From positions 1 through 64,000 of IMG/VR virus record IMGVR_UViG_3300042453_003817: 64,000 nt of DNA; one strand, given 5' to 3'. Origin of the DNA: a virus. Position 1 is the stretch's first letter; each line of letters begins with the position of its first letter. A program made the position numbers and the translations under genes. Below are positions 3,977 to 35,042 of the stretch, one piece after another. Under the pieces are notes generated by a model. That model was given only the letters and a program-made list of their open reading frames with translations, did no database searches and was not told where the DNA came from.

Positions 3977-4128
3977 TGAGCATTGAACAAGTTAATTTGG
4001 TTCTTTCTGAACTGGCTGATAGTCTTCGGCAAGAAATTGTGGATCTCATGCATGAAGATATGATTCGTGAGATTGAAGAATATTGGTTGAGTTATGTCTT
4101 CGATTATGAATCTGAATGGGATTTTTGA
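3976..4128 (+). CDS. Small acidic protein (50 aa)
   Basis: The ATG overlaps the previous stop (TAATG) and the stop TGA is two bases before the next gene, so it sits in a tight operon. The product is acidic and helical (LSELADSLRQEIVDLMHED). Not recognised. Confidence 0.6.
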   Translation: MSIEQVNLVLSELADSLRQEIVDLMHEDMIREIEEYWLSYVFDYESEWDF

Positions 4129-4129
4129 A

Positions 4130-4291
4130 ATGACCCCATTGGTTGAACTTCGGTGGGTTTGGCGAAACGAACCAAAAGAAAAAGTATTGCAATACAGATA
4201 TAGAATTGCTGAATCTGAAAATTATGTAACACATTGGAAAGATGTTCCGGTAGTTACTGAGCAAGCGGAGAATGAAATTGGAAATGCGTGA
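4130..4291 (+). CDS. Small conserved phage protein (53 aa)
   Basis: ATG 4130 gives MTPLVELRWVWRNEP followed by VLQYRYRI and THWKDVPVV, a short beta-rich pattern common in small phage proteins. An upstream in-frame ATG at 4094 lies inside the preceding gene and is less likely. Function unknown. Confidence 0.65.
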   Translation: MTPLVELRWVWRNEPKEKVLQYRYRIAESENYVTHWKDVPVVTEQAENEIGNA

Positions 4292-4460
4292 AATTTTTGA
4301 GCAAGTTACTTTGGTGAATTTTGTTCCTGGTGAAATAGATACGACCCGATTGGCTAATGGGCAGTATCGCAATCCTGTCATCGAGGATCACTGGCAGACA
4401 TTCCAAGAAGGTTGGGAAGAAGGCATTAAGTGGTTTAAGCAGTCTGCGACGGAATACTGA
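4272..4460 (+). CDS. Small phage protein (62 aa)
   Basis: Starts inside the previous gene; ATG 4284 is an alternative start. It ends with an aromatic, acidic helix (HWQTFQEGWEEGIKWFKQ). The stop is immediately followed by the next promoter dyad. Not recognised. Confidence 0.65.
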   Translation: MKLEMREIFEQVTLVNFVPGEIDTTRLANGQYRNPVIEDHWQTFQEGWEEGIKWFKQSATEY

Positions 4461-6969: not shown

Positions 6970-7043
6970 TGGGGTATGGTGAAATGGCATCACACTCGAT
7001 TTTGATTCAAGTATTCTTGGTTCGATTCCAAGTACCCCTGCCA
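6970..7043 (+). tRNA. tRNA-Gln (TTG)
   Basis: Cloverleaf with anticodon loop TTTTGAT, T-loop TTCGATT and encoded CCA. Acceptor GGGGTA/TACCCC is closed by a mispaired U1-U72; glutamine tRNAs normally have a weak 1-72 pair, so this is compatible with charging. One A-C mismatch in the anticodon stem. Confidence 0.9.
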
Positions 7044-7050
7044 AAATTTA

Positions 7051-7138
7051 GGAAGTGTGGTCGAGTGGTCTATGGCGCCAGTCTTGAAAACTGGAGGTCC
7101 GAAAGGGTCCGTGAGTTCGAATCTCACCGCTTCCGCCA
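7051..7138 (+). tRNA. tRNA-Ser (TGA)
   Basis: Class II tRNA with acceptor GGAAGTG, anticodon loop CTTGAAA, a long variable arm (GGTCCGAAAGGGTCC) and encoded GCCA. Confidence 0.93.
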
Positions 7139-7146
7139 AATTTAAT

Positions 7147-7236
7147 GGAGTGGTCCTATAATGGTATTAGAGCGGATTGCTAATCCGTCGCTCGGTTAAC
7201 GCCGGGTTCTGGGTTCGAGTCCCAGTCACTCCGCCA
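7147..7236 (+). tRNA. tRNA-Ser (GCT)
   Basis: Acceptor GGAGTGG, anticodon loop TTGCTAA, long variable arm, T-loop TTCGAGT, encoded GCCA. Its distance from tRNA-Ser(TGA) is 8 nt. Confidence 0.93.
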
Positions 7237-7238
7237 AC

Positions 7239-7333
7239 GGTAGGTAGCACTGGTGTGCGGCTGAGTCTTATAAGCTCGGGAGATCGGTCAGATGGGCTGA
7301 AACGGAAGAGTTCGAATCTCTTACCTACTACCA
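7239..7333 (+). tRNA. Atypical tRNA, anticodon TAT (Ile) with long variable region
   Basis: Acceptor GGTAGGT/ACCTACT (G1-U72), T-arm AAGAG-TTCGAAT-CTCTT, ACCA end. The anticodon loop CTTATAA predicts TAT (AUA, Ile). A variable region of about 27 nt and a D-arm that folds as GCAC-TGGT-GTGC with only a 4-nt loop are abnormal for tRNA-Ile. It may be divergent, degenerate or mis-folded by me. Confidence 0.6.
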
Positions 7334-7340
7334 AATACAT

Positions 7341-7418
7341 GCACAGGTGGCAGAGTGGACAAATGCGAGAGCCTGCAAAACTCTAAAATCGTCGGTTCGA
7401 ATCCGACCCTGTGCTCCA
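7341..7418 (+). tRNA. tRNA-Cys (GCA)
   Basis: Acceptor GCACAGG/CCTGTGC with U73, anticodon loop CTGCAAA, T-arm GTCGG-TTCGAAT-CCGAC, encoded CCA. U73 is the usual cysteine discriminator. The CCA abuts the next promoter dyad. Confidence 0.92.
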
Positions 7419-7475
7419 GTTGTAAAAAAACAACAACAAAAAAGTTGTTGACACAGTTTGTGGAATCTGTATAAT
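7419..7475 (+). promoter_or_regulatory. Promoter of second tRNA block with upstream dyad
   Basis: TTGACA 7448-7453, TATAAT 7470-7475, 16-bp spacer; dyad GTTGT-N6-ACAAC at 7419-7434, centred about 55 bp before the start, directly after the CCA of tRNA-Cys. Confidence 0.8.
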
Positions 7476-7496
7476 AGATTCTGTTGATGATGTAAA

Positions 7497-7506
7497 TGCT
7501 CTTTAA
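7497..7506 (+). promoter_or_regulatory. boxA-like antitermination site before second tRNA block
   Basis: TGCTCTTTAA, identical to the core of rRNA-operon boxA, 15 nt upstream of tRNA-Glu and about 15 nt into the transcript. Confidence 0.6.
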
Positions 7507-7521
7507 AAACTGTTGTTCGAT

Positions 7522-7596
7522 GCACCGTTCGTCTATCGGTTAGGACGCTAGCCTTTCACGCTGGAAAGACGAGTTCGATTCTCGTACGGTGTACCA
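7522..7596 (+). tRNA. tRNA-Glu (TTC)
   Basis: Acceptor GCACCGT/ACGGTGT, anticodon loop CTTTCAC, T-arm GACGAG-TTCGATT-CTCGT, encoded CCA. Its CCA is the first three bases of the 17-bp helix of structured element A. Confidence 0.93.
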
Positions 7597-7728
7597 TATT
7601 GAAACACACTTACACTGTGGCGCTTTGTCCGTCCCTGGTTTAAAACAGGATATCGCATAAACAGTTCAAGCCCCGGTCGCTCCGGTCTGCTGTGTAAAAG
7701 AGAGACGGTCGAGTGTGTTTCAATATGG
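7594..7728 (+). ncRNA. Structured spacer element A in tRNA operon
   Basis: A perfect 17-bp helix joins CCATATTGAAACACACT (7594-7610, beginning with the CCA of tRNA-Glu) to AGTGTGTTTCAATATGG (7712-7728). The interior has further hairpins, e.g. TTACAC/GTGTAA (7610-7615 with 7692-7697) and CCGG-TCGCT-CCGG. It has no canonical T-loop or long frame. Two related elements lie at 7815 and 8379. Confidence 0.7.
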
Positions 7729-7732
7729 TATA

Positions 7733-7814
7733 GATACAGTATGCTGCGGGTGCCTTTTGAGACCAACAGGCTGTCACTGGAATCATATTGTATCTGCCGC
7801 CACGGTCCGCGGCA
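7733..7814 (+). ncRNA. Structured spacer RNA between elements A and B
   Basis: An 11-bp stem GATACAGTATG/CATATTGTATC (one G-U) encloses a GCCT/AGGC hairpin, followed by TGCCGC-N8-GCGGCA. GCTGCGG at 7743 could pair with CCGCGGC before an ACCA (tRNA-like spacing, 75 nt), but no T-loop motif exists, so I do not call a tRNA. Confidence 0.45.
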
Positions 7815-7893
7815 CCATATTGAAGCACATTAGAACCCACCCCTAGTAGCAAAAGCGAATCAAGGGTGTAATGTTGAGTGTGTTTCAATATGG
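7815..7893 (+). ncRNA. Structured spacer element B in tRNA operon
   Basis: CCATATTGAAGCACATT (7815-7831) pairs over 17 positions with AGTGTGTTTCAATATGG (7877-7893); both differences from element A are G-U compatible. Inner pairings: ACATTA/TAATGT and CACCC/GGGTG. The last two Gs are the first two bases of the following tRNA, so helix formation and tRNA maturation must compete. Confidence 0.7.
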
Positions 7894-7967
7894 GCCTATA
7901 GCTCAGAGGTCAGAGCAGTGAACTCATAATTCATTGGTCGTAGGTTCGAAACCTACTGGGCCCACCA
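7892..7967 (+). tRNA. tRNA-Met or tRNA-Ile2 (CAT), first copy
   Basis: Acceptor GGGCCTA/TGGGCCC, D-arm TAGCTCAG...GAGC, anticodon loop CTCATAA, T-arm GTAGG-TTCGAAA-CCTAC, encoded ACCA. It lacks the GGG/CCC anticodon-stem pairs of an initiator. Lysidine-modified Ile2 cannot be excluded. Confidence 0.92.
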
Positions 7968-7973
7968 AAATTT

Positions 7974-8047
7974 GCGGGTATAACTTAGTGGTAAAGTAAC
8001 TGGCTTTTAACCAGTAAATCCGAGTTCGATTCTCGGTGCCCGTACCA
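7974..8047 (+). tRNA. tRNA-Lys (TTT)
   Basis: Acceptor GCGGGTA/TGCCCGT, anticodon arm ACTGG-CTTTTAA-CCAGT, T-loop TTCGATT, encoded CCA. Confidence 0.93.
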
Positions 8048-8052
8048 AATAT

Positions 8053-8139
8053 GGATGCGTAGCCAAATGGTTGACGGCAGCAGACTGTAAATCTGTGACA
8101 TAAGAAACGCTGGTGGTTCGAATCCATCCGCATCCACCA
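8053..8139 (+). tRNA. tRNA-Tyr (GTA)
   Basis: Class II tRNA: acceptor GGATGCG/CGCATCC, anticodon arm GCAGA-CTGTAAA-TCTGT, long variable arm, T-arm GGTGG-TTCGAAT-CCATC, A73, encoded CCA. Confidence 0.93.
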
Positions 8140-8145
8140 AATTTA

Positions 8146-8220
8146 GGTTCCATAGTATATCGGCGAGTATAGCGCCCTGTCACGGCGCAGGAACGGGTTC
8201 GAGTCCCGTTGGGACCGCCA
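8146..8220 (+). tRNA. tRNA-Asp (GTC)
   Basis: Acceptor GGTTCCA/TGGGACC with G73, anticodon arm GCGCC-CTGTCAC-GGCGC, T-loop TTCGAGT, encoded CCA. G73 is the aspartate discriminator. Confidence 0.93.
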
Positions 8221-8226
8221 GAATGA

Positions 8227-8302
8227 TCCGGAGTAGCACAGCGGTAGTTGCGTCTGACTGTTAATCAGAATGTCGTTGGTTCGATCCCAACCTCCGGAGC
8301 CA
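8227..8302 (+). tRNA. tRNA-Asn (GTT)
   Basis: Acceptor TCCGGAG/CTCCGGA with G73, anticodon arm TCTGA-CTGTTAA-TCAGA, T-arm GTTGG-TTCGATC-CCAAC, encoded CCA. Confidence 0.93.
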
Positions 8303-8304
8303 AA

Positions 8305-8381
8305 GCCCTCTTACTCCAATTGGTAGAGAGGACGGTCTTAGAAGCCGTAGAGTCTCAGTTCGAATCTGAGAGAGGGCACCA
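8305..8381 (+). tRNA. Atypical tRNA, anticodon TAG (Leu CUA) with short variable loop
   Basis: Acceptor GCCCTCT/AGAGGGC, anticodon arm ACGGT-CTTAGAA-GCCGT, T-arm CTCAG-TTCGAAT-CTGAG, encoded ACCA. The variable loop is 5 nt, whereas bacterial leucine tRNAs are class II with a long arm. The fold is otherwise clean, so the aminoacylation identity is uncertain. Its CCA starts element C. Confidence 0.8.
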
Positions 8382-8503
8382 TATTGAAGCATACTAAATC
8401 GAAAGCGTCCTCAGAACAGAAATGACTATCTGGTGAGTATGCAGGTAGAGAGGTGTAAAAAGTCCCCGCTTGTCACGGTTACCTCAAGTGTGTTTCAATA
8501 TGG
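8379..8503 (+). ncRNA. Structured spacer element C in tRNA operon
   Basis: CCATATTGAAGCATACT (8379-8395) pairs with AGTGTGTTTCAATATGG (8487-8503) with two G-U pairs. The variable part GCATACT instead pairs perfectly with AGTATGC (8436-8442), and GAGGT with ACCTC (8481-8485), so a three-way junction closed by the invariant 10-bp outer helix is likely. The 3' arm is identical in elements A, B and C. Confidence 0.7.
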
Positions 8504-8506
8504 TTA

Positions 8507-8514
8507 CTAAATAA
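8507..8514 (+). promoter_or_regulatory. CTAAATAA motif upstream of tRNA-Ala
   Basis: CTAAATAA, the same octamer found upstream of RNase H (16519) and gp32 (34073). It resembles the T4 late box TATAAATA at 6 of 8 positions. Promoter function is inference. Confidence 0.3.
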
Positions 8515-8521
8515 ATTTTCT

Positions 8522-8596
8522 GGGCTGCTAGTGATAATGGGAGCACGCCGCCTTTGCACGGCGGAGGTAAGAGTTCGATTCTCTTGCGGTCCACCA
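8522..8596 (+). tRNA. tRNA-Ala (TGC)
   Basis: Acceptor GGGCTGC/GCGGTCC contains the G3-U70 wobble that defines alanine identity; anticodon arm CCGCC-TTTGCAC-GGCGG, T-arm AAGAG-TTCGATT-CTCTT, A73, encoded CCA. Confidence 0.94.
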
Positions 8597-8602
8597 AGTT
8601 TC

Positions 8603-8676
8603 GCCTCTGTCGGTTAATGGCAAACCAACGGTTTTGTAATCCGTGACTGTCTGTTCGATTCAGACCAGAGGCACCA
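8603..8676 (+). tRNA. tRNA-Thr (TGT)
   Basis: Acceptor GCCTCTG/CAGAGGC, anticodon loop TTTGTAA with a U-U mismatch closing the stem, T-loop TTCGATT, encoded ACCA. Confidence 0.9.
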
Positions 8677-8684
8677 AAGTTTTA

Positions 8685-8760
8685 CTCCGATTGGGATAAT
8701 AGGTAGTCCACTACGTTTGGGGCGTAGAAGGTGCTGGTTCGAGTCCAGTGTCGGAGACCA
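8685..8760 (+). tRNA. tRNA-Pro (TGG)
   Basis: Acceptor CTCCGAT/GTCGGAG, anticodon arm CTACG-TTTGGGG-CGTAG, T-arm GCTGG-TTCGAGT-CCAGT, encoded ACCA. Confidence 0.93.
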
Positions 8761-8763
8761 GTT

Positions 8764-8837
8764 TGCGGGATAGAGAAAGGGTATCTCAGAAGTCTCATAA
8801 GCTTCAGTTCTTGGTTCGAGTCCAGGTCCCGCTACCA
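8764..8837 (+). tRNA. tRNA-Met or tRNA-Ile2 (CAT), second copy
   Basis: With U8-A9 placed normally, the acceptor is closed by a U1-U72 mispair and GCGGGA/TCCCGC. Anticodon arm GAAGT-CTCATAA-GCTTC; T-loop TTCGAGT; encoded ACCA. A mispaired 1-72 is an initiator trait, but the anticodon stem lacks the three G-C pairs. Confidence 0.88.
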
Positions 8838-8841
8838 ATTA

Positions 8842-8916
8842 GGTTCAATGACGTAGATGGATGCGTACCGGTATCATAAGCCGAGGAGAGTGGATCGTTA
8901 CCACTTTGAACCACCA
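8842..8916 (+). tRNA. tRNA-Met-like (CAT), third copy, unusual T-loop
   Basis: Acceptor GGTTCAA/TTGAACC, anticodon loop ATCATAA, T-arm AGTGG-ATCGTTA-CCACT (A54 instead of U54), encoded ACCA. The GGAG that follows the CCA is the Shine-Dalgarno of the next gene, so this tRNA and an mRNA share one transcript. Confidence 0.85.
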
Positions 8917-8925
8917 GGAGATATT

Positions 8926-9675
8926 ATGAATATTGAAGAGATCATACAAGTTCCTTATACAACAAGACCTAAAATGCAAAAGAATACAGGTTTTGTTTTT
9001 AATCCTAATCCAAGTGTCAAATATCTCTCTGAGAAAACGAAACAACTTGCAATGTTTGGTTATGATTTGTATGGGATGAATATCAAAGCAATAACCAATC
9101 AATTGATTCGAAGAGCGGAATCTATGACAGGTAAAACGATTACGGGTGATATCATAGACTTTGCTTTGAATTTTGAAGAAGATGTTGCAATCATGAATGA
9201 TGGAATTTTATCTGCAATTTGTTTTTGTTTTCCTAGTTCATGGATTCCATTTAAAGCACTGAATAAATCATTAATGCAAATACATCATCCTGTTGCTGAT
9301 GGTGAGCATCTACGAAAGGTGAGTGATAAGCTTGCACAAACAATAGCCGATCCAGTTCTAGGAAGTTTTGAGAGACATGTTTGGACAATTACAAGAGTTC
9401 CAGAATTAAGTAATCATCCAGAAATCAAAGAGCAATATAAAGATGTCCCTGTGACACTAGAAAATTTGTATTTCAGGCATGAGAGACAAACAACATTACC
9501 ATTAAATGATTGCAAGACAAGTTTGTTTTTTGTGAAAATAAATGTTGTGCCTCTTGTAAATTTATGGTATAATAACAGTCAATTAATTAGAGAGAGTATT
9601 AATTCTATGAGTGAAGAAATTATTCGATATAAAAATCTTGAAGAAATTAAAACGGTCCTTAGTTCAATGGATTAG
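8926..9675 (+). CDS. DUF3445-like protein, putative haem-dependent N-demethylase
   Basis: 249 residues from ATG 8926, with GGAG 5 nt upstream abutting a tRNA CCA. The block FCFPSSWIPFKALNKSLMQIHHPV and the later LYFRHERQTTLPL match the signature of DUF3445 (PF11927), whose studied member is a PAS-fold haem enzyme that oxidatively removes N-methyl groups. The length is slightly short for the family. The last 7 codons lie inside tRNA-Arg and the stop is in that tRNA's D-loop, so mRNA and tRNA cannot both be intact from one transcript. The catalytic assignment is by motif only. Confidence 0.65.
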   Translation: MNIEEIIQVPYTTRPKMQKNTGFVFNPNPSVKYLSEKTKQLAMFGYDLYGMNIKAITNQLIRRAESMTGKTITGDIIDFALNFEEDVAIMNDGILSAICFCFPSSWIPFKALNKSLMQIHHPVADGEHLRKVSDKLAQTIADPVLGSFERHVWTITRVPELSNHPEIKEQYKDVPVTLENLYFRHERQTTLPLNDCKTSLFFVKINVVPLVNLWYNNSQLIRESINSMSEEIIRYKNLEEIKTVLSSMD

Positions 9676-9728
9676 AATCCCTTGCTACGAACGAGGAGAC
9701 GGGAGTTCGATTCTCTCAGGACCGGCCA
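9653..9728 (+). tRNA. tRNA-Arg (ACG)
   Basis: Acceptor CGGTCCT/AGGACCG, anticodon arm CCTTG-CTACGAA-CGAGG (A34 would need deamination to inosine), T-arm GGGAG-TTCGATT-CTCTC, G73, encoded CCA. Its first 23 nt overlap the end of the DUF3445-like gene. Confidence 0.93.
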
Positions 9729-9732
9729 GTAT

Positions 9733-9807
9733 GCCTCGTTAGCTGAGATGGATTAGCAGCGTCTTGATAAGGCGCAGAGAATGGATCGTTACCATTACGA
9801 GGTACCA
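9733..9807 (+). tRNA. tRNA-Ile (GAT)
   Basis: Acceptor GCCTCGT/ACGAGGT, D-arm AGCTGAGATGGATTAGC, anticodon arm GCGTC-TTGATAA-GGCGC, T-arm AATGG-ATCGTTA-CCATT with A54, encoded ACCA. The T-arm closely matches the tRNA at 8842. Confidence 0.92.
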
Positions 9808-9812
9808 ATTTT

Positions 9813-9886
9813 CTCCCAGTGGTGTAAGGGCAACATAAGAGTCTCCAAAACTTTTGATTGCGGTTCGAATCCGTACTGGGAGGCCA
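9813..9886 (+). tRNA. tRNA-Trp (CCA)
   Basis: Acceptor CTCCCAG/CTGGGAG with G73, anticodon loop CTCCAAA, T-arm TGCGG-TTCGAAT-CCGTA, encoded CCA. Confidence 0.92.
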
Positions 9887-9904
9887 ACGTAAGGAGCGAG
9901 TGAT

Positions 9905-10375
9905 ATGTACAACAAAAAAATTGATCTAAATGAAGTGAAGACATTTATTGAAAATTGCGGACCAAATACAAAAGTGTATCTTGGTTGTGACTCTGAAAAA
10001 GTGAAACTCAATGGTGTTTGGCATGCCGACTACATTATAGCTATTGTTGTACATATGGATAGTAAACATGGTTGTAAAATTTTCGGTCAGATCACGCGCG
10101 AGCGCGATTATGATCAAGCAAGAAATAAACCTCGAATGCGTCTAATGAATGAGGTTTACAAAGTTGCTGAAATGTATCTTGAACTTGCAGCCATGATTGA
10201 TAACGAAATTGAAGTACATCTTGACATTAATCCAAATGAAGAGTATAATTCAAATATCGTAATCAATGAAGCGATTGGCTATATAAAAGGTATGTGTAAT
10301 GTTGTGCCACTTGTAAAACCAAATGCATTTGCTGCTTCTTATGCAGCAGATAGGTTGAAGAGTCTGGCAGCATAA
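9905..10375 (+). CDS. RNase-H-like YkuK/DUF458 family protein
   Basis: 156 residues. Motifs in order: GCDSEK near residue 27, a beta strand IIAIVVHMDSKHG, VHLDIN near 112, then a KPNAFAASYAADRL ending. This matches DUF458 (PF04308, Bacillus YkuK), predicted RNase-H-fold nucleases with conserved Asp residues. AAGGAG is spaced 9 nt from the ATG. The position among tRNA genes suggests RNA or translation-related work, but the substrate is unknown. Confidence 0.75.
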   Translation: MYNKKIDLNEVKTFIENCGPNTKVYLGCDSEKVKLNGVWHADYIIAIVVHMDSKHGCKIFGQITRERDYDQARNKPRMRLMNEVYKVAEMYLELAAMIDNEIEVHLDINPNEEYNSNIVINEAIGYIKGMCNVVPLVKPNAFAASYAADRLKSLAA

Positions 10376-10384
10376 AGTAGTACC

Positions 10385-10459
10385 GCGGGTATGATGTTAA
10401 CGGTAGCATGACAGCCTTCCAAGCTGCTCGAATCGGTTCGAATCCGATTACCCGCTCCA
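10385..10459 (+). tRNA. tRNA-Gly (TCC)
   Basis: Acceptor GCGGGTA/TACCCGC with U73, anticodon arm CAGC-CTTCCAA-GCTG, T-loop TTCGAAT, encoded CCA. U73 fits bacterial glycine identity. Confidence 0.93.
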
Positions 10460-10464
10460 GTTTT

Positions 10465-10541
10465 GCGGATATGGTGTTTAACGGTTAGCATGAGACCTTG
10501 CCAAGGTTTAGGTTCCAGTTCGAATCTGGATATCCGCTCCA
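10465..10541 (+). tRNA. tRNA-Gly (GCC)
   Basis: Acceptor GCGGATA/TATCCGC with U73, anticodon loop TTGCCAA, T-arm CCAG-TTCGAAT-CTGG, encoded CCA. Confidence 0.92.
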
Positions 10542-10543
10542 GT

Positions 10544-10618
10544 GGTGTCTATAGTGTAATGGGAGCACCACTCTCTGTGAAAGAGTGAGAATGAGATCGA
10601 AACTCATTAGGCACCCCA
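10544..10618 (+). tRNA. tRNA-His (GTG)
   Basis: The extra G-1 (10544) pairs with C73, the histidine identity mark; acceptor GTGTCTA/TAGGCAC, anticodon arm ACTCT-CTGTGAA-AGAGT, T-loop ATCGAAA (A54), encoded CCA. Confidence 0.93.
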
Positions 10619-10619
10619 A

Positions 10620-10693
10620 GCTTCGTTAGTTTAATGGTAAAACTCCGCCCTTACAAGACGGTTACGGCAGTTCGATTCTGTCACGAAGCACCA
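10620..10693 (+). tRNA. tRNA-Val (TAC)
   Basis: Acceptor GCTTCGT/ACGAAGC, anticodon arm CCGCC-CTTACAA-GACGG (one C-A mismatch), T-loop TTCGATT, encoded ACCA. Confidence 0.92.
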
Positions 10694-10697
10694 ATTT

Positions 10698-10773
10698 GCC
10701 GCTTTAGCTGATGTGGTCATAGCAACGGTCTGAAGAGCCGTGGAACCTGGTTCGATCCCAGGAGGCGGTACCA
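10698..10773 (+). tRNA. tRNA-Phe (GAA)
   Basis: Acceptor GCCGCTT/AGGCGGT, anticodon arm ACGGT-CTGAAGA-GCCGT, T-arm CCTGG-TTCGATC-CCAGG, encoded ACCA. Confidence 0.93.
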
Positions 10774-10780
10774 AGTTTAC

Positions 10781-10809
10781 CTGACTTTTTTGTTACTGTG
10801 TTATATAAT
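10781..10809 (+). promoter_or_regulatory. Internal promoter for the last two tRNAs
   Basis: CTGACT (10781-10786) and TATAAT (10804-10809) with a 17-bp spacer; the predicted start lies a few bases before tRNA-Leu at 10819. No dyad upstream. Confidence 0.5.
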
Positions 10810-10818
10810 GTTTTTATT

Positions 10819-10906
10819 GCGGATGTGGCGAAATCGGTGAAACGCAGCAGACTTAAAATCTGCCACATAAGAAACGTTGCGGGTTCGAATCCCGCCATCC
10901 GCACCA
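10819..10906 (+). tRNA. tRNA-Leu (TAA)
   Basis: Class II: acceptor GCGGATG/CATCCGC, anticodon arm GCAGA-CTTAAAA-TCTGC, long variable arm, T-loop TTCGAAT, A73, encoded CCA. Confidence 0.94.
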
Positions 10907-10911
10907 AAAAT

Positions 10912-10986
10912 CTGACCGTCGTATAATGGACAATACAGCAGTCTTCTAAACTGCGAATGGGGGTTCGATTCCCTCCGGTCGGACCA
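10912..10986 (+). tRNA. tRNA-Arg (TCT)
   Basis: Acceptor CTGACCG/CGGTCGG, anticodon arm GCAGT-CTTCTAA-ACTGC, T-loop TTCGATT, encoded ACCA. It reads AGA, the arginine codon favoured in the structural genes of this window. Confidence 0.93.
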
Positions 10987-24976: not shown

Positions 24977-26059
24977 ATGCACACTTTTTATTATTCTAAA
25001 CAAAAAATATTTCATTCTAAAATTGAAGCTTTAGAGAATGATGGAAATGTATTTTTTTACTATCATGACCAAGAATATGATAAATTAAATTGGAATGTCG
25101 AACCAGCTTTAGACATTAAAGAGTTATATAAACTCAATGCTTTACGTATTCGAGAAAAGTATGACAAATTGATACTTTGTTACAGTGGAGGATACGATTC
25201 AACACAAGTATTAGAAACTTTCGTTTTCAATAAAATAAAGCTGGACAAAATTGTGACCGTAGGAGCATTTAGTCAAGATTCAAATTCCGATTCTGATGAA
25301 AATATGAATATAGAGGCTTACAAGAATGCTTTTCCTTTTATAAAAAAATATAATCTTTCGGAAATATATGAAGTTTTCGATTACACAAAACTTTTCGATA
25401 ATCCTTCGAATTTCATATTAAATGAATATGGACACAATTGGATTGATAAGGTTGGTTCATACTTCAGTCTACATCATTTTTTCTGGCACAATTTGGAAGA
25501 AATTATAGTGCCAAATTCATGGAGAGATAAGAAAACAGGAATAATTTTCGGGATGGATAAACCATATCTATTTTTCGATTTACCAAATAATAAATTTTAT
25601 TTTTCTTTTAAGGATTATACGATAAATGCTTATGGAAATAGATTTAGTTCATTGTATAGTGATCGATTGTTTTTCTTTTGGGATGTAAATTTTCCTAATA
25701 TTTTATTGAAGCAATTGCATATACTTAAAAATAATTGTTTAGTCTACCATAACTTATCTAAAAAACCAATCGATGTATGTGTGCATCATATTAATGATTT
25801 GATTTCTAATACTGTTTTAACTGAAGACGGTCGTAATGTTTCTTTAGTTTATGATATAAAAAATGCTTTATCTGTAAAGTCACCAAAAAGCAGTAGTTTT
25901 TATTTGAGTAATAGAGATAGATATATTTTGAGTAAAAAAGATACAGAAATGTTTAAACTATATTTGAGAGGTATACAAAATATGAAAAGAAGATTGGAAG
26001 GAAAAATTCCAATAAGCAAAAATCTTCCTGTAATTTATTCAAGACGATACTATCTTTGA
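24977..26059 (+). CDS. PP-loop (SGGYDS) ATP-pyrophosphatase-like enzyme, copy 1
   Basis: 360 residues. Residues 66-78 (ILCYSGGYDSTQV) are the PP-loop of ATP-pyrophosphatase/adenine-nucleotide alpha-hydrolase enzymes (asparagine synthetase C-domain, QueC, sugar amidotransferases), which adenylate a substrate carbonyl. It is a full-length paralogue of the gene at 28943: shared N-terminal FYYS/YYSV...KIF, IREKYD, NKIKLD, G(M/V)DKP and C-terminal LP-x3-S(R/K)(R/K)Y. No glutaminase domain. The lack of other recognised domains leaves the product open. Confidence 0.75.
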   Translation: MHTFYYSKQKIFHSKIEALENDGNVFFYYHDQEYDKLNWNVEPALDIKELYKLNALRIREKYDKLILCYSGGYDSTQVLETFVFNKIKLDKIVTVGAFSQDSNSDSDENMNIEAYKNAFPFIKKYNLSEIYEVFDYTKLFDNPSNFILNEYGHNWIDKVGSYFSLHHFFWHNLEEIIVPNSWRDKKTGIIFGMDKPYLFFDLPNNKFYFSFKDYTINAYGNRFSSLYSDRLFFFWDVNFPNILLKQLHILKNNCLVYHNLSKKPIDVCVHHINDLISNTVLTEDGRNVSLVYDIKNALSVKSPKSSSFYLSNRDRYILSKKDTEMFKLYLRGIQNMKRRLEGKIPISKNLPVIYSRRYYL

Positions 26060-26070
26060 ACGGTCTTATC

Positions 26071-26913
26071 ATGTTTAAAAACAAAGTTCCAATCGTACTA
26101 TCGCACATTTCCGTATTAGATAACGGCAACTATGTGTTACCAGACTATATCCTAAACAAATATTTTTATGAAGTGCGATTGTTTAGAAAAAATTGCCCAC
26201 ATAGAATGTACCCATTGCACGAACCAGGTGAGATTGTACAAGGCATACACTGCAAACTTCATAATTTTAATTGGGATAAGTTTGGTAATCCATTGAACAA
26301 TGATAAAAATCTTATCTGCGGAAAAGCAGAAGTTGGTGCTTCAAACTTAATTTTAAAAGATTTTGTAGAACCTGATCATAAATGGGTTAGGGATTTGCAG
26401 AGCGAAACATCACTTAAATATAGTCATTTTCGCTCCGGTGAAAGTCATGGTAGTTGGCTTTGGTTAATGGACATAGAAGCCGACCTATTTCACGTATGGA
26501 AAGATGGAATTCATCCGCTATTGTATCAACAGGTGAAGTTAGAAGATATTAAGTTGGATCAAGGTGACGGATGGATAATTCAAGAACATCCTGATGGATG
26601 GTGGTTGTATATCTTTCCATATGTTTTTGTAGAGTATGGTTCAAAAGGTAAGTTGGCTATCAATAGAATAATCCCTAAAAATTCCAACAGCGAATTTGGG
26701 TATACATGGATGACACAGTTTTTTTATGATGATAATGTAAGTGCAAATGATAAATTAATTTTTGAAACTTTCGAAGATGTATTTAAACAGGACGTTGAAG
26801 CTTCTTCAAAGCAGACAGTTCCTTATTTTCCACTGATGAGTTCATTGAATAAATATGAATCTCAGTGCGTACATTTTGGTGAGTGGTATAGAAACAATGT
26901 TGACAAATCGTAA
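26071..26913 (+). CDS. Rieske-type non-haem iron oxygenase-like protein
   Basis: 280 residues from ATG 26071 (MFKNKVPIV); the TTG at 26056 is a weaker start. Cys42-x-His44 and Cys61-x2-His64 (NCPHR ... IHCKLH) make a Rieske [2Fe-2S] site. Downstream DIEADLFHVWKDGIHP gives Asp138-x2-His141-x6-His148, close to the mononuclear-iron motif of ring-hydroxylating oxygenases but with a longer His-His gap. It is shorter than typical alpha subunits (about 350-450). No reductase is visible nearby, so host electron donors would be needed. Confidence 0.75.
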   Translation: MFKNKVPIVLSHISVLDNGNYVLPDYILNKYFYEVRLFRKNCPHRMYPLHEPGEIVQGIHCKLHNFNWDKFGNPLNNDKNLICGKAEVGASNLILKDFVEPDHKWVRDLQSETSLKYSHFRSGESHGSWLWLMDIEADLFHVWKDGIHPLLYQQVKLEDIKLDQGDGWIIQEHPDGWWLYIFPYVFVEYGSKGKLAINRIIPKNSNSEFGYTWMTQFFYDDNVSANDKLIFETFEDVFKQDVEASSKQTVPYFPLMSSLNKYESQCVHFGEWYRNNVDKS

Positions 26914-27733: not shown

Positions 27734-28087
27734 ATGGTAAAAGTGGTTATGACTTTAAAGAGAGATGATACATCAAAAGACTGGGTTATACCCAATAAAG
27801 AAACGATAGACAAAGGTATTTTTAGTAAAGAAGAAATTGATGTTGTTGTTAACACTAGAAATGCATATTCGTATCTTCCTGGGTATGTTACTTCATCTAC
27901 TGATTTTGTAGACGATTACACATATACTTTTACAATAGAATTTGATACACAAGAAGCAGCAAAAAGCGCATATAATGCAATTAAAAATCCTCCAACCAAT
28001 TCTCTAATTTATATTAGACAACAGCTTATGAATTTGAAAAGAAATAGGTTGGGTTTAAACTATGAGTTTAATGTCGAATTGAAATGA
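27734..28087 (+). CDS. Small protein of unknown function in accessory cassette (117 aa)
   Basis: Directly follows the previous stop; AAGGAGAC precedes the ATG. Alternating strands and helices (TYTFTIEFDTQEAAKSAYNAIKN) would suit a ferredoxin-like fold, but this is only a composition-based guess. Overlaps the next start by 4 nt, so it belongs to the cassette. Confidence 0.6.
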   Translation: MVKVVMTLKRDDTSKDWVIPNKETIDKGIFSKEEIDVVVNTRNAYSYLPGYVTSSTDFVDDYTYTFTIEFDTQEAAKSAYNAIKNPPTNSLIYIRQQLMNLKRNRLGLNYEFNVELK

Positions 28088-28962
28088 AACATTTATTATT
28101 ATCAATATTAATATTTTTCTCTTCAATATGTTTGGCTAAGCAGCCAACAATTTTAATCTTATCAGCAGGGTCTGGAGGTTTAGTACACAAATATGCTTTA
28201 GAAATGCAGCCGTTTTTTAATAATTTTTTTGGAAATGTGATAATAGAGTTTAAAGTTGGAGCTGAAGGTTCTATTGCAGCCCGCGCTTTATCCGAAAATA
28301 AAACGGAAAAGATTACTTTATTGATGGGACCTGTTCAGAATTGGGCAACTAATCCTTTAAATGATTTAACTCCTGTTGCATATATGGGAACTATTCCTGG
28401 AGTTATTTTTGCTAATACTAAAACTAATTATCGCAATTTTAAAGAAGTATTAGAAGAATCAAATAAAAAGTTGATAACATATGGATTTGTTGGAAGTAGT
28501 AATAATGGAAAGATGATTCAAGAAATTAATCAAAAATATACTAAATCGGAAAATTTTGTAGGAATTCCATATAAAAGTGGATCTGCTGTAACGAACGATG
28601 TTATAGGAAATCATATAATGTTAGGTATTAGTATACCAAATAATGTATATCAGTATGCAAAAAATAATACAATAATTCCTTTAGTAACATTTGGATCTTC
28701 CAGGTCCCGCTATTTACCCGATATTCCCACTTTGACTGAATTGAACTTGCACATCGAAAGAGAATATAGATTTTACAATAACATTTTTTTGTTTGCGAAT
28801 AAGAGTGCTAATCAAAAAGAAGTCAATAAACTTAGATTAGCTTTACGACAATACTTTGAAAGTGAAACTTCTCTAAAAGTTAGGACGACTATGGATATTC
28901 ACTTTGGTACGCACCCAATAACATCTCCAGAAAAACTTATAAATGACATTATCACTGAATAA
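28084..28962 (+). CDS. TctC/Bug-family periplasmic solute-binding protein
   Basis: 292 residues with signal peptide MKHLLLSILIFFSSICLA. ILILSAGSGGLVHKYA, VIIEFKVGAEGSIAARAL, the hinge FVGIPYKSGSAVTNDVIGNHIMLG and SRSRYLPDIPTLTEL follow the TctC/Bug order. These receptors bind small carboxylates for tripartite tricarboxylate transporters and are very numerous in Burkholderiales. The membrane subunits TctA/TctB are absent, so it would serve host transporters or bind a ligand on its own. A rare phage cargo. Confidence 0.85.
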   Translation: MKHLLLSILIFFSSICLAKQPTILILSAGSGGLVHKYALEMQPFFNNFFGNVIIEFKVGAEGSIAARALSENKTEKITLLMGPVQNWATNPLNDLTPVAYMGTIPGVIFANTKTNYRNFKEVLEESNKKLITYGFVGSSNNGKMIQEINQKYTKSENFVGIPYKSGSAVTNDVIGNHIMLGISIPNNVYQYAKNNTIIPLVTFGSSRSRYLPDIPTLTELNLHIEREYRFYNNIFLFANKSANQKEVNKLRLALRQYFESETSLKVRTTMDIHFGTHPITSPEKLINDIITE

Positions 28963-30154
28963 CGATTTTGGTTATTACTCAGTTGGTGAAAAAATATTCT
29001 TTTCCAAAAATTTAGCATACAATGAATCTCTGCTTAAAAATGCTAGAGTTGAGTATAGATTTAATGATCATGTTTTTGATAGATATGATTGGACACGAGA
29101 GCCGGAACCTGAAGTTTCTATAGAGGAGTTCTATAGAAGAAGAGCGCAGCAAATAAGAGATGAATATGATTATGTGGTCCTTCAATATAGTGGAGGACCA
29201 GATAGCACTAATATTTTACAAACTTTTTTAAAAAATAAAATTAAATTAGATGAAATAGTAAATTTCAACTCTTACAATTCCACATCTGTTGTGGAAGGAA
29301 CAATTCATAACGCCGATTACGTCTATAATGTTAGACCTATTTTAGAAAAACTCTTAAAAGAAAATACACAAACTAAGGTAACGATTGTAGATGAAATAGA
29401 AATGACTAAAAAAATCTGGGATGATTTATATTCTAAAGACTATTATGAGTTATTGTTTTCATCTGGTACATTCCCATCATTCTGGATGATGAGAGGAATA
29501 TGGGTTAAATATATTCCTCATATATTTGATATGATATCGTCTGGTAAAAAAGTGGGAGTGGTTATGGGTGTGGATAAACCTATGCTTAAATTAGATGATA
29601 AAAAATATTTTACTGTGTTCAATGACATTATGGCATGTGATATAACAACAAGTATGCATAACTGTAGTGAGTTAAATCCAACAAATATAATAGAATTTTT
29701 TTATCAAACTCCAAAGTTTCCTGAGTTAATCATAAAGCAAGTCCACCTACTCAAAAAAACAGTGGAAAAATATGAGAAACAAAATGATGTGTCACTCTTC
29801 GAAAATTCAAATAAGTTAGATAATACAGAATTCAGAAATTCTTTTACCTGTGAATCTAAATTACATTTGAGAAAAAATTTGAGATATGATCTATATCACA
29901 AAACAATATATCCACATTGGTCTCCAAATATAGTAACCCCCAAACTACGGCTTAATGGTAAAAAAAATATTGATTGTTGGTGGGTCGATAAGTTGGATGA
30001 CAAGTATGTTAAAATATGGAATAATGGTGCTTTAAAATATATACAAAATTTTTCTAGTTTGATTAAGACAACTTCTTACAATTTTAATCAACAAAAAAGA
30101 TTCGAATTTTCTACTTTACCTTTATTGCATAGTAAAAAATATTTTGTAGAGTAA
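28943..30154 (+). CDS. PP-loop (SGGPDS) ATP-pyrophosphatase-like enzyme, copy 3
   Basis: 403 residues. PP-loop VVLQYSGGPDSTNIL (78-92); full-length similarity to the gene at 24977 including WTREPEPEVSIEEFYRRRAQQIRDEYD before the loop and VVMGVDKPML later. The start overlaps tctC by 20 nt. Last protein gene of the cassette, directly before tmRNA. Confidence 0.75.
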   Translation: MTLSLNNDFGYYSVGEKIFFSKNLAYNESLLKNARVEYRFNDHVFDRYDWTREPEPEVSIEEFYRRRAQQIRDEYDYVVLQYSGGPDSTNILQTFLKNKIKLDEIVNFNSYNSTSVVEGTIHNADYVYNVRPILEKLLKENTQTKVTIVDEIEMTKKIWDDLYSKDYYELLFSSGTFPSFWMMRGIWVKYIPHIFDMISSGKKVGVVMGVDKPMLKLDDKKYFTVFNDIMACDITTSMHNCSELNPTNIIEFFYQTPKFPELIIKQVHLLKKTVEKYEKQNDVSLFENSNKLDNTEFRNSFTCESKLHLRKNLRYDLYHKTIYPHWSPNIVTPKLRLNGKKNIDCWWVDKLDDKYVKIWNNGALKYIQNFSSLIKTTSYNFNQQKRFEFSTLPLLHSKKYFVE

Positions 30155-30177
30155 AGATTGCCTCACCTTAAATCTTT
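30153..30177 (+). terminator. Weak hairpin after the accessory cassette
   Basis: AAAGATT / 11-nt loop / AATCTTT directly at the stop of the previous gene, followed by ATT rather than a U tract. Possibly a weak terminator or 3'-end stem. Confidence 0.3.
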
Positions 30178-30184
30178 ATTGCTA

Positions 30185-30190
30185 TATAAT
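30185..30190 (+). promoter_or_regulatory. -10 box of the tmRNA gene
   Basis: TATAAT; no convincing -35 hexamer at 16-18 bp. The predicted start near 30197 would include the whole acceptor piece. Confidence 0.45.
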
Positions 30191-30196
30191 ACCACA

Positions 30197-30481
30197 TGAT
30201 CGTATGAAGTTGACTGAAAAGTGTCTCGGACGGCGGTTCGATTCCGCCCAGGTCCACCAGAAGTGCATATCGACTGGTATCGGCAGTAGCCAAAAGGTCT
30301 TTGTGTGCTTCTGATGGGCCTGACCTGGTTTCGACGGGGCAATAAGTAGGAAGATGGACGGTTCGACACAGAGAGTCGCTAAAAGTAAATCGAAGTAAAC
30401 GCAAACGAAGAACGTTTCGCATTGGCTGCCTAAACACAGCCTAGGGTTTCGGTGGGTTTCCTCGTAACAGAATAACCCACC
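30197..30481 (+). ncRNA. ssrA: Circularly permuted (two-piece) tmRNA
   Basis: The 3' tRNA half comes first: T-arm GGCGG-TTCGATT-CCGCC (30232-30248), acceptor strand CAGGTCC, A73 and CCA (to 30259). After a 56-nt spacer folded by AGAAGTGCA/TGTGCTTCT comes the 5' half: GGGCCTG (30316-30322, pairing fully with CAGGTCC and giving the G3-U70 alanine mark) and CTGGTTTCGACGGGG. The tag frame GCA...TAA (30401-30433) encodes ANEERFALAA. A GGTGGGTT/AACCCACC stem (30451-30481) ends it. The role is rescue of stalled ribosomes with a ClpXP-type degradation tag. Ends of the mature pieces are approximate. Confidence 0.93.
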
Positions 30482-30499
30482 ATTCAAAGGAGATCATTG

Positions 30500-31030
30500 A
30501 TGCATTTTATGAAACTTGTTTTCATAGGCATTCTTGGATACTTTTTCGTGCAACACTTTCATATACTAGTCGATCAAAAATTTGAAGAGGTTAAAGAAAG
30601 TAAACATCCGCCATATGTCACAATGGCTCAACGCGAAAAAGAACTTGACTGTCTAACGAAAAACATATATTATGAAGCAGGAACAGAACCTTTTGAAGGC
30701 AAAGTAGCTGTTGCTCAAGTAACCATCAATAGAACTAAATCAGGTAAATTTCCAAAAGATATTTGTGCAGTTGTATATGAACGAAATTTAGTGTATAATA
30801 ATTTAATCTGTCAGTTTAGTTGGTACTGTGATTCAAAAGCGAAAGTGAGGCCCATCCATGCAGCAACCTATAAAGAATCCGAGGCTGTGGCTAAAAAGGT
30901 ACTTCTCGAAGGATTCAAACTTGACATTATCAAAGAGGACACATTATACTATCATGCAGACTACATCAACCCAGGATGGAAAAGACAAAGAGTTGCCAAA
31001 ATTGGAAAACACATCTTCTACAAAGGCTGA
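30500..31030 (+). CDS. SleB/CwlJ-type cell-wall hydrolase, probable endolysin
   Basis: 176 residues from ATG 30500 (AAGGAG 7 nt upstream). An N-terminal hydrophobic segment (LVFIGILGYFFVQHFHILV) works as a signal anchor. CLTKNIYYEAGTEPFEGKVAVAQVTINR, CQFSWYCD and LYYHADYINPGW match Hydrolase_2 (PF07486), with Glu in YYEAG as probable catalytic residue. The signal-anchor layout suggests release as a SAR-type endolysin. Confidence 0.85.
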   Translation: MHFMKLVFIGILGYFFVQHFHILVDQKFEEVKESKHPPYVTMAQREKELDCLTKNIYYEAGTEPFEGKVAVAQVTINRTKSGKFPKDICAVVYERNLVYNNLICQFSWYCDSKAKVRPIHAATYKESEAVAKKVLLEGFKLDIIKEDTLYYHADYINPGWKRQRVAKIGKHIFYKG

Positions 31031-32518: not shown

Positions 32519-32791
32519 ATGGCCGTGAAACAATTTAGTATTAATCAAATTTCTGCTGAGGCAGACCGTAAGAAACTTCTCGATGCTATTCGTGAATGTT
32601 CCAATTCAATGACTCGAATTGAAGCTGAGAAGGATCTTATCAAGGAAGCGGTAAAGACTGTATGTGAGGATTTGAAACTTCCAAAACGCCTTGTAAATCG
32701 TTTGGTTAAAGTGTATCATAAACAGAACTATGATGAAGAAGTTGCAACACACGAACAATTCGAACAACTCTATGAAACGATTGTAAAGTAA
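32519..32791 (+). CDS. dsbA: DsbA-like double-stranded DNA-binding protein
   Basis: 90 residues, T4 DsbA-sized (89). CSNSMTRIEAEKDLIKEAVKTV, LPKRLVNRLVKVYHKQNYDEE and EQFEQLYETIV match the T4 family, which binds DNA near late promoters. AAGGAG upstream. It is followed by gp33, consistent with a late-transcription module. Confidence 0.8.
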   Translation: MAVKQFSINQISAEADRKKLLDAIRECSNSMTRIEAEKDLIKEAVKTVCEDLKLPKRLVNRLVKVYHKQNYDEEVATHEQFEQLYETIVK

Positions 32792-32792
32792 T

Positions 32793-33014
32793 ATGCCTAC
32801 AAAAGAAGAGATGCACAAGTTCTATGAAGAAATAGAAAATATTGTTTCTGGAACTGATTACAATTATATGGAAGCAATCATCGAGTATTGTAATCGAACA
32901 GGAATGGAAGTAGAAGTTGCATCAACCCTTGTGAATAAAGATTTGAAGGCTAAAATTGAAATTGATGCACAAGCATTGAATTTACTTCCGAAAACTAGAC
33001 GTTTACCAATATGA
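32793..33014 (+). CDS. 33: gp33-like late transcription coactivator
   Basis: 73 residues. MPTKEEMHKFYEEIENI ... YMEAIIEYCNRTGMEVEVASTLVNKDLKAKI ... LNLLPKTRRLP matches cyanophage gp33, which links RNA polymerase to the sliding clamp at late promoters. Shorter than T4 gp33 (112) but normal for the divergent group. The partner sigma gp55 is not in the window. Confidence 0.8.
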   Translation: MPTKEEMHKFYEEIENIVSGTDYNYMEAIIEYCNRTGMEVEVASTLVNKDLKAKIEIDAQALNLLPKTRRLPI

Positions 33015-33592
33015 CAGGCTATGAAGCGTTCAGCATTTACCATGTCTTGAAATTACATTTCACAACGAATTATGATTATTTCAAGTACAATGGTAAATGC
33101 AACATCACAATCGAGACATTCGAGAAAAGAAAAGACAAGTATTACTTTTACAAGTTGTCCAGAAAGTATGATACGGACGAATATAAAGAATTTGTTATTT
33201 CTAATCTTTTGAATGATCCCGATTCTTGGGCTGGCAATCTACTGACGGATGAAGCGAATGAAATTCACTACAATCGAATGAAGAGAATTCAATCCTTATC
33301 CTACGTGTTCAAAAATGATTGTCATGAACTCTCAAATCACGGCAAAGTTAACGATTTGTTAAAGGTTTGCAGTGACTATCCGAAACTTTTCGTACTCAGT
33401 AGGCAGGGAACTGTCTGTGACGAGACGGTTATCATATTGAATTCATTGATGAATTTCTTACCCAAGTGGAAGGAAAAAATCAAGGATACCATCGTCTGGC
33501 CTATTGCTTTTTCTAGGTGGATGAGATATACTCCATTTGTAAGTTTCGATAAAGAAAAATGTAGGAAAATCGCTCTAGAGGCATTTAAATGA
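33011..33592 (+). CDS. 59: gp59-like helicase loader
   Basis: 193 residues (T4 gp59: 217). MTGYEAFSIYHVLKLHFTTNYDYFKYNG, KYYFYKLSRKY and the HELSNHGKVNDLL block follow the order of gp59 in T4-like phages. gp59 loads the gp41 helicase on forked DNA coated by gp32, encoded two genes downstream. Overlaps gp33 by 4 nt. Confidence 0.75.
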   Translation: MTGYEAFSIYHVLKLHFTTNYDYFKYNGKCNITIETFEKRKDKYYFYKLSRKYDTDEYKEFVISNLLNDPDSWAGNLLTDEANEIHYNRMKRIQSLSYVFKNDCHELSNHGKVNDLLKVCSDYPKLFVLSRQGTVCDETVIILNSLMNFLPKWKEKIKDTIVWPIAFSRWMRYTPFVSFDKEKCRKIALEAFK

Positions 33593-34080: not shown

Positions 34081-34148
34081 TAGTATATCATGTTTATGTG
34101 GACAATTTAAATACACCGTTTATACACCGTTATACGAAAGGAAATATC

Positions 34149-35042
34149 ATGTCATTTGCAAATCTCAAACGCAATCGTTCTAGCCTCGATAAACTGACTA
34201 AAGCAATCGAGAGCACCAATCAAGCTGCTGAAGCTGGCTCAAAAGACGATACTCGATTCTGGCAACCTAATGTAGACAAATCTGGAAACGGAATGGCAGT
34301 TATTCGTTTTCTTCCCGCACCCTCTGTTGATGGTGAGGATGGTCTTCCTTGGGTACGAATCTTCAATCATGGCTTTCAGGGACCAGGTGGTTGGCTGATT
34401 GACAACTGTTTGACAACTTTGAATGAGAAGTGCCCTGTGTGCGAACACAATAGCACTCTTTGGAATTCAGGTGTCGAATCGAACAAAGAGATTGTTAGGA
34501 AACAAAAGCGTAAGCTTTCATATGTTGCTAACATTTATGTTGTATCCGATCCTTCAAATCCTGAAAATGAAGGAACGGTTCGTTTGTTTAAGTTCGGTAA
34601 GAAAATTTTCGACAAGATTACTGAAGCAATGAATCCAGAATTCGCGGATGAAAAGCCCTTGAATCCGTTTGACTTCTGGGAAGGCGCTAACTTCAAACTG
34701 AAGATTCGTAATGTCGAAGGTTATCGCAATTATGATAAATCAGAATTCTCGGATCCGTCTGCACTTTTTGATGGTGATGATGCTAAACTTGAAAAACTTT
34801 ATGCTCAAGAACATTCACTCAAAGAATTTCTTGACCGTAAGAATTTCAAGAGTTATGAATTGCTGAAAGGTCGTTTGGATAAAGTTCTGGGTTTTGAAGG
34901 TGATACTGAAGATGCTCCTACCCCCACGCAAGCACGTGTGACTGAAGCACCAAAATCACTTATGCCAGCACCAACTAAAGCACCCGTAACTGCTGAAGAA
35001 GATGATCTAGATTATTTCAAATCTCTAGCAGAATCAAACTAA
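34149..35042 (+). CDS. 32: gp32-like single-stranded DNA-binding protein
   Basis: 297 residues from ATG 34149 (AGGAAAT upstream; the longer frame from 34098 adds a non-homologous leader). A basic N-terminus (FANLKRNRSSLDKL) for cooperative binding, an OB core with FWQPNVDKSGNGMAVIRFLPA, zinc ligands in CLTTLNEKCPVCEHN, and an acidic tail ending EEDDLDYFKSL that recruits partners, as in T4 gp32. Confidence 0.92.
   Translation: MSFANLKRNRSSLDKLTKAIESTNQAAEAGSKDDTRFWQPNVDKSGNGMAVIRFLPAPSVDGEDGLPWVRIFNHGFQGPGGWLIDNCLTTLNEKCPVCEHNSTLWNSGVESNKEIVRKQKRKLSYVANIYVVSDPSNPENEGTVRLFKFGKKIFDKITEAMNPEFADEKPLNPFDFWEGANFKLKIRNVEGYRNYDKSEFSDPSALFDGDDAKLEKLYAQEHSLKEFLDRKNFKSYELLKGRLDKVLGFEGDTEDAPTPTQARVTEAPKSLMPAPTKAPVTAEEDDLDYFKSLAESN

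Follow-up and report, generated by a model that had tools for sequence, protein, structure and literature searches.

A beta-type circularly permuted tmRNA in a T4-like phage, with a replaceable spacer

The presence of a tmRNA gene in a phage genome raises the question of what it does there: whether it carries out trans-translation during infection, opposes that of the host, or is simply host DNA carried along. The stretch analysed here (the window: 64,000 nucleotides, positions 1 to 64,000 of IMG/VR virus record IMGVR_UViG_3300042453_003817, which is linear and 91,780 bp long) was originally predicted, from its letters, to hold a complete circularly permuted tmRNA at 30197-30481 on the + strand; ARAGORN and two Rfam models confirm it. 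Taken as a whole, the locus is very probably a functional beta-type circularly permuted tmRNA of a T4-like phage, long inherited and interrupted by a replaceable spacer. Comparison at the level of sequence establishes the architecture, the tag frame, selection on base pairing, the phage neighbourhood and the replaceability of the spacer; the role would most likely be host-SmpB-dependent ribosome rescue, that is, ordinary trans-translation, during infection.

ARAGORN's call is of the permuted class (tmRNA*) and spans 30167-30524, the coding part at 30401-30433 giving the tag ANEERFALAA. In cmscan, run at Rfam gathering thresholds, RF01850 (beta_tmRNA) matches over its full length at 30149-30496 (133.8 bits, E 1.3e-40; cut-off 84) and RF04321 (tmRNA_permuted) at 30198-30433 (126.8 bits; cut-off 47). 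As both exceed their cut-offs, the locus does not lack a covariance-model hit, the outcome that would have spoken against a tmRNA. The Infernal comparison with two-piece lineage models, proposed as a check, separates the lineages: the beta model passes, while the alpha and cyano models stay under their cut-offs on this locus (47.8 bits against 50, and 52.6 against 70). The window tmRNA is beta-type, beta being the sole lineage model to pass and giving the best score.

Inspection of the sequence finds every part named in the original prediction where it had been placed (Table 1), and reads the order as permuted: acceptor half first, then spacer, then 5′ half. The predicted 7-bp acceptor stem with G3-U70 forms in full, GGGCCUG (30316-30322) pairing with CAGGUCC (30249-30255) at seven positions, and the spacer, described as 56 nt long and self-folding, does fold (−20.7 kcal/mol, z −3.9; 1 of 200 shuffles equally good). 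The tag frame reads GCA AAC GAA GAA CGT TTC GCA TTG GCT GCC TAA, with an alanine resume codon, a hydrophobic end and a stop. Because the post-tag hairpin closes at 30481, the end coordinate first proposed is exact; AGGG (30443-30446) could pair with UCCU (30459-30462), a candidate pseudoknot read by eye. At the other end a −10-like box (30180-30190) precedes the RNA, and the start therefore probably lies near 30197. At the promoter position many relatives carry sigma70-like −10 boxes or late-type TAAATA, the latter in 17 of 61 upstream regions versus 2.2% of random segments. The T4 late promoter TATAAATA shows no enrichment within the window, and none lies ahead of the window tmRNA.

Table 1. 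Features of the tmRNA locus in the window, and permuted tmRNAs located in cultured phages
Feature	Position	Strand	Basis
Putative promoter TGC-TATATAAT, extended −10-like	30180..30190	+	Sequence; 6 nt 5′ of the inferred RNA start
Acceptor piece (3′ half of tRNA-like domain, CCA end)	30197..30259	+	ARAGORN, RF01850/RF04321 alignments
T-arm GGCGG-UUCGAUU-CCGCC	30232..30248	+	Rfam alignment; T-stem pairing among relatives
Acceptor 3′ strand CAGGUCC (30249-30255), discriminator A and encoded CCA (30256-30259)	30249..30259	+	Sequence, Rfam
Spacer, 56 nt, 10-bp closing stem flush with CCA; removal expected	30260..30315	+	Fold, relatives
Coding piece: 5′ half of tRNA-like domain followed by tag frame and candidate post-tag pseudoknot	30316..30481	+	ARAGORN, Rfam
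Acceptor 5′ strand GGGCCUG, contributing G3 to the G3-U70 alanine identity pair	30316..30322	+	Sequence
Tag frame ANEERFALAA, resume codon GCA, stop TAA	30401..30433	+	ARAGORN, sequence
Post-tag hairpin GGUGGGUU/AACCCACC, conserved loop UCCUCGUAACAGAAU	30443..30481	+	Stem covariation
Cell wall hydrolase, SleB-type endolysin, directly 3′ of tmRNA	30500..31030	+	PF07486, 82 bits; phrog_938 endolysin
Unannotated permuted tmRNA, cultured phage (L141)	about 3997-4325		
Unannotated permuted tmRNA, cultured phage (L142, DLP6)	3997-4218		
Unannotated permuted tmRNA, cultured phage (L143)	2974-3268		
Unannotated permuted tmRNA, cultured phage (L144)	1974-2279		

Viral relatives numbered 73 stretches by the pattern of the permuted tRNA-like domain and 20 by the tag pattern. 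Four (L042, L060, L061 and L065) have an identical RNA and flanks 94-99.6% identical to the window, and so represent the same or a very close phage. In the next circle (L076-L090 and L145-L149) the acceptor piece is about 96-98.5% identical in L076, L145 and L147-L149, and the coding piece 97-99% identical in L076 and L081. The RNA is better conserved than the neighbouring genes; in L077, for example, it is 90-92% identical, versus 67-81% for flanking matches.

In these sequences compensatory changes support the acceptor stem, the T-stem, the post-tag hairpin and the spacer stem. The acceptor and T-stem percentages are biased upward, because the collection was made with a structure-like pattern and ARAGORN, which favour paired sequences: 79 of the 81 distinct permuted sequences form every acceptor pair (the exceptions, L121 and L122 with 4 of 7, are artefacts of a one-base frame error in the script), pairs 4 and 5 varying on both sides; G3-U70 is present in 81 of 81, U70 being fixed by the search pattern and G3 free; and all 80 distinct permuted tmRNAs compared have an intact T-stem, three of its five pairs showing compensatory types. 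The spacer stem lay outside the search pattern and so is not biased in this way; it averages 9.5 contiguous pairs, versus 4.6 for mismatched 5′/3′ halves and a maximum of 5.4 in 300 shuffles. The post-tag stem covaries (L027 GGTTGGTT/AACCAACC, L025 GATAGGTT/AACCTATC, L016 ACAGTTTA/TAAACTGT), and its loop UCCUCGUAACAGAAU is unchanged in 8 of the 10 sequences checked.

Conservation of the tag bears on what the RNA does. A phage RNA of this shape might act as a decoy, binding to SmpB or to alanyl-tRNA synthetase so as to inhibit trans-translation in the host instead of performing it; a tmRNA-like inhibitor of this sort has been proposed in mycobacteriophage DS6A, whose tRNA-like RNA has no tag (PMC4131195). 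A decoy needs no tag, however, whereas the window RNA retains the full tag frame, resume codon, stop and candidate post-tag pseudoknot, and ANEERFALAA is kept across relatives with differing spacers. Because the tag frame is kept, inhibition is improbable, and the performance of trans-translation is the preferred account.

Other tags occur in the collection. Very long ones, of 23-31 aa (e.g. ANADTFDFSAMSFTGNTVRGAANESRFALAA; AKASTGEVTVSGKNVKFSARTVKAESFAV), are found in L002, L004, L007, L008, L010, L012, L023, L052 and their relatives, and some of these contigs carry NrdAB, RIIA and endolysin genes. The tags of L013, L038, L063 and L141 (ANDDYYEPLRLVA, ANDAQFLVAANA, ANDAEFKVAAYA, VAANDADYSVARYA) lack the usual hydrophobic-Ala-Ala end and may therefore not direct ClpXP degradation; phage tmRNAs may thus not all share one purpose.

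The record is a T4-like phage, and the view that the RNA is phage-encoded is upheld by its surroundings: T4-like gp32 (34098-35042), gp59 (33011-33592), DsbA (32519-32791) and baseplate genes lie around it, with PhoH, RNase H, tail tube and baseplate wedge also near. Divergent members of the group share the order exonuclease, tmRNA, endolysin, gp59, gp32. Thirty viral contigs, some of them near-duplicates, have an exonuclease homologue, tmRNA and endolysin homologue on the same strand, and endolysin homologues come after the tmRNA in most relatives; gp59 and then gp32 usually follow in these contigs, even where the proteins are merely 30-60% identical to those of the window. The record is metagenomic, and host DNA might have been wrongly placed in a virus contig. 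That reading, hardly credible now, is contradicted by the many independent contigs in which the tmRNA lies within T4-like phage operons, by the T4-type core genes that flank it in independent records, and by permuted tmRNAs in isolated phage genomes. Searches of the 91.8-kb record with positive controls found no gene for SmpB, so that host SmpB would be needed.

Other contents of the window include 26 tRNA genes in a block at 6970-10986 (ARAGORN), within which lie genes for a haem-dependent oxidative N-demethylase-like protein (8857-9675) and an RNase H-like protein (9905-10375). A Rieske-domain protein gene (26056-26913) and a TctC/Bug-type tricarboxylate receptor gene (28084-28962; PF03401, 62 bits) are auxiliary genes unusual for a T4-like phage.

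A second question is where the gene came from. The original prediction thought capture from the host lineage likely, and read the tag as pointing to the host. A recent capture of host ssrA, carried as a passenger without selected function, would fit the resemblance to betaproteobacterial tags (ANDERFALAA is common in Burkholderiales) and the fact that the beta model gives the RNA its best score. The closest relatives are nevertheless all phage tmRNAs: in a tree whose deeper forks are weak and whose long branches are flagged, the window RNA falls inside phage-only groups, with bacterial permuted and one-piece genes elsewhere. Blastn stretches to bacterial genes are nearly all shorter than 60 nt, the one longer stretch running to 135 nt at 67%; and both the synteny common to divergent T4-like phages and the strong compensatory conservation speak against a passenger. 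Recent capture is thus very unlikely; tree and synteny together argue that the gene belongs to the phage group and was probably not recently acquired.

The tag fares no better as a pointer to the host. Ten bacterial contigs fit the ANEERFALAA-type DNA pattern; nine have an ARAGORN tmRNA bearing the tag, and all nine are one-piece, so a bacterial origin read from the tag was rejected. Permuted beta tmRNA exceeds the cut-off in 15 of 399 genomes of one Burkholderiales-centred order. The window RNA resembles the betaproteobacterial RNA of RF01850 in its full-length match, the order of its parts, its hairpin spacer and a tag ending in ALAA. It differs in a post-tag region without the consensus terminator, in score (134 bits, versus 157-336 for 14 of the 15 Burkholderiales genes over cut-off and 104 for the fifteenth) and in its 56-nt spacer, versus 24-42 nt in those genes with the odd L125 left out. 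A betaproteobacterial (Burkholderiales) host is plausible from the beta-type RNA and the TctC-type gene: this receptor family is greatly expanded in Burkholderiales, and the gene at 28084-28962 is compatible with such a host.

The original prediction knew of no characterised permuted tmRNA in a T4-like phage, but phage two-piece tmRNAs, T4-like included, are published (PMC9004378). By 2021 phage genomes had yielded 53 reported two-piece structures, with marine or aquatic phages accounting for 50; Methylophilales phage Melnitz, which like the window combines a permuted ssrA with T4-like replication genes, is described in detail (PMC9004378). Its ssrA reportedly belongs to the alphaproteobacterial type and is linked to a glutamine riboswitch (PMC9004378), whereas the window RNA scores as beta-type and Rfam gives no riboswitch in the window. 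A unified database holds 79 unique bacteriophage tmRNA sequences (PMC11915505). The window locus adds another phage two-piece tmRNA, of a kind already described. Mycobacteriophage tmRNAs are of the standard one-piece kind, whereas the window RNA is permuted. Phage-borne ssrA as such is common to the window, the mycobacteriophage Bxz1 group and Bacillus phage G (PMC4131195).

A blastn search of 50,697 phage records with the tmRNA came back empty at E 1e-5, and relaxing the threshold to E 10 pointed to Xanthomonas and Stenotrophomonas phages. Permuted tmRNAs, unannotated, are present in Xanthomonas phages X1 and Rb1 and Stenotrophomonas phages DLP6 and QDWS359 (Table 1). Like the window RNA, all four match RF04321 (77-137 bits), and that of DLP6 also passes the beta_tmRNA cut-off (103.7 bits); they differ from it in their tags (e.g. 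ANDDSFAPMAIAA) and spacers. Their hosts are Xanthomonadaceae, bacteria that, as far as is known, use one-piece tmRNA. Phage pf16 encodes an SspB analogue and is reported to be without ssrA; no permuted tmRNA was found in it either. DLP6 also has, amid tRNA genes at 105774-106022 (L142 6933-7181), an RNase P class A RNA-like match of 54.7 bits (Rfam cut-off 100), absent from one re-search of the sub-region.

The part of the gene that does not follow the rest is the spacer, which, to judge from the relatives, is swapped wholesale between related phages like an exchangeable cassette. Mature parts are 95-98% identical among the window, L076 and L081, and their spacers are unrelated; the window and L081 have 98% of the mature RNA in common and unrelated spacers of 56 and 119 nt. 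L147 and L149 match the window at 98.5% in the acceptor piece and at 94-95% over 1.3-3 kb downstream, yet have the 119-nt spacer. Near-identical spacers also occur in tmRNAs merely 58-80% alike. The 119-nt structured spacer, which has no Rfam match, is found in 14 IMG/VR stretches (L077, L078, L081-L086, L090, L145-L149) and is 97-99% identical among RNAs whose mature parts are as little as 78-90% alike; 13 of the 14 have a tmRNA call, the L145 contig stopping just past acceptor piece and spacer. L041, L010, L037 and L059, whose RNAs are 59-70% alike, carry a 61-nt spacer that is 100% identical, and a 53-nt spacer is common to L064 (acceptor GGGGATG) and L074 (acceptor GGGCCTG). Every phage spacer has a covarying stem at its CCA end that closes it. 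Assembly chimeras are unlikely because the contigs stem from different datasets; several of those that share spacers hold phage-type genes, e.g. NrdA/NrdB, RIIA and endolysin.

Recombination in the conserved flanks (T-arm-CCA; GGG..TTCGAC) would explain the exchange, and a true mobile element is possible. The gene is mosaic outside the spacer too, as L090, L080 and L087 have a different block between tRNA-like part and tag. The 194-nt spacer of L076 (about 1570-1763) contains a 57-codon ORF (MSDNNTSRQFTKKRRQGG...), whose TGA stop overlaps the spacer end just 5′ of the mature coding-piece start; a homologue search with this ORF gave no convincing relative. One tentative idea, somewhat doubtful as it stands, sees in the spacer a landing place for cassettes that are mobile or under selection, either small structured RNAs (the 53-, 61-, 62- and 119-nt families) or the L076 ORF, which would move from one divergent phage to another, would be tolerated since processing removes them, and may serve as small RNAs or be selfish elements. 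On the preferred account the spacer would be a neutral or semi-neutral slot, its content exchanged between phages; its hypervariability next to conserved pieces is consistent with two-piece processing. A search of the open literature, outside which most subscription papers fall, turned up no description of spacers being exchanged among phage tmRNA genes.

These observations suggest the following course for ordinary trans-translation in the infected cell. The gene, an old inherited part of the phage group and probably not a recent host gene, would be transcribed from its own promoter just 5′ of the tmRNA; host tRNA-processing enzymes would excise the hairpin-closed spacer, RNase P cutting before GGG and a 3′ endonuclease or exonuclease acting after CCA; and the acceptor and coding pieces would stay joined through base pairing. 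Host alanyl-tRNA synthetase would charge the RNA via G3-U70; host SmpB would bring it to ribosomes halted where an mRNA has been cleaved or is decaying; and ANEERFALAA would tag the unfinished protein for host ClpXP-type proteases. Ribosomes would thereby be kept available under the high mRNA turnover of infection, the tmRNA working alongside the 26 tRNAs that the phage carries.

Annotation overlooks phage tmRNAs, as the four cultured phage records with unlisted permuted ones illustrate. The exchange of spacers amounts to a natural experiment on what maturation of a two-piece RNA needs, apparently a closing stem flush with the CCA and little else, and the spacer marks a place where a phage gene can accept foreign sequence without obvious cost. 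The two-piece tmRNA is a standing, syntenic part of this T4-like phage group, and its proposed part in ribosome rescue during infection is directly testable.
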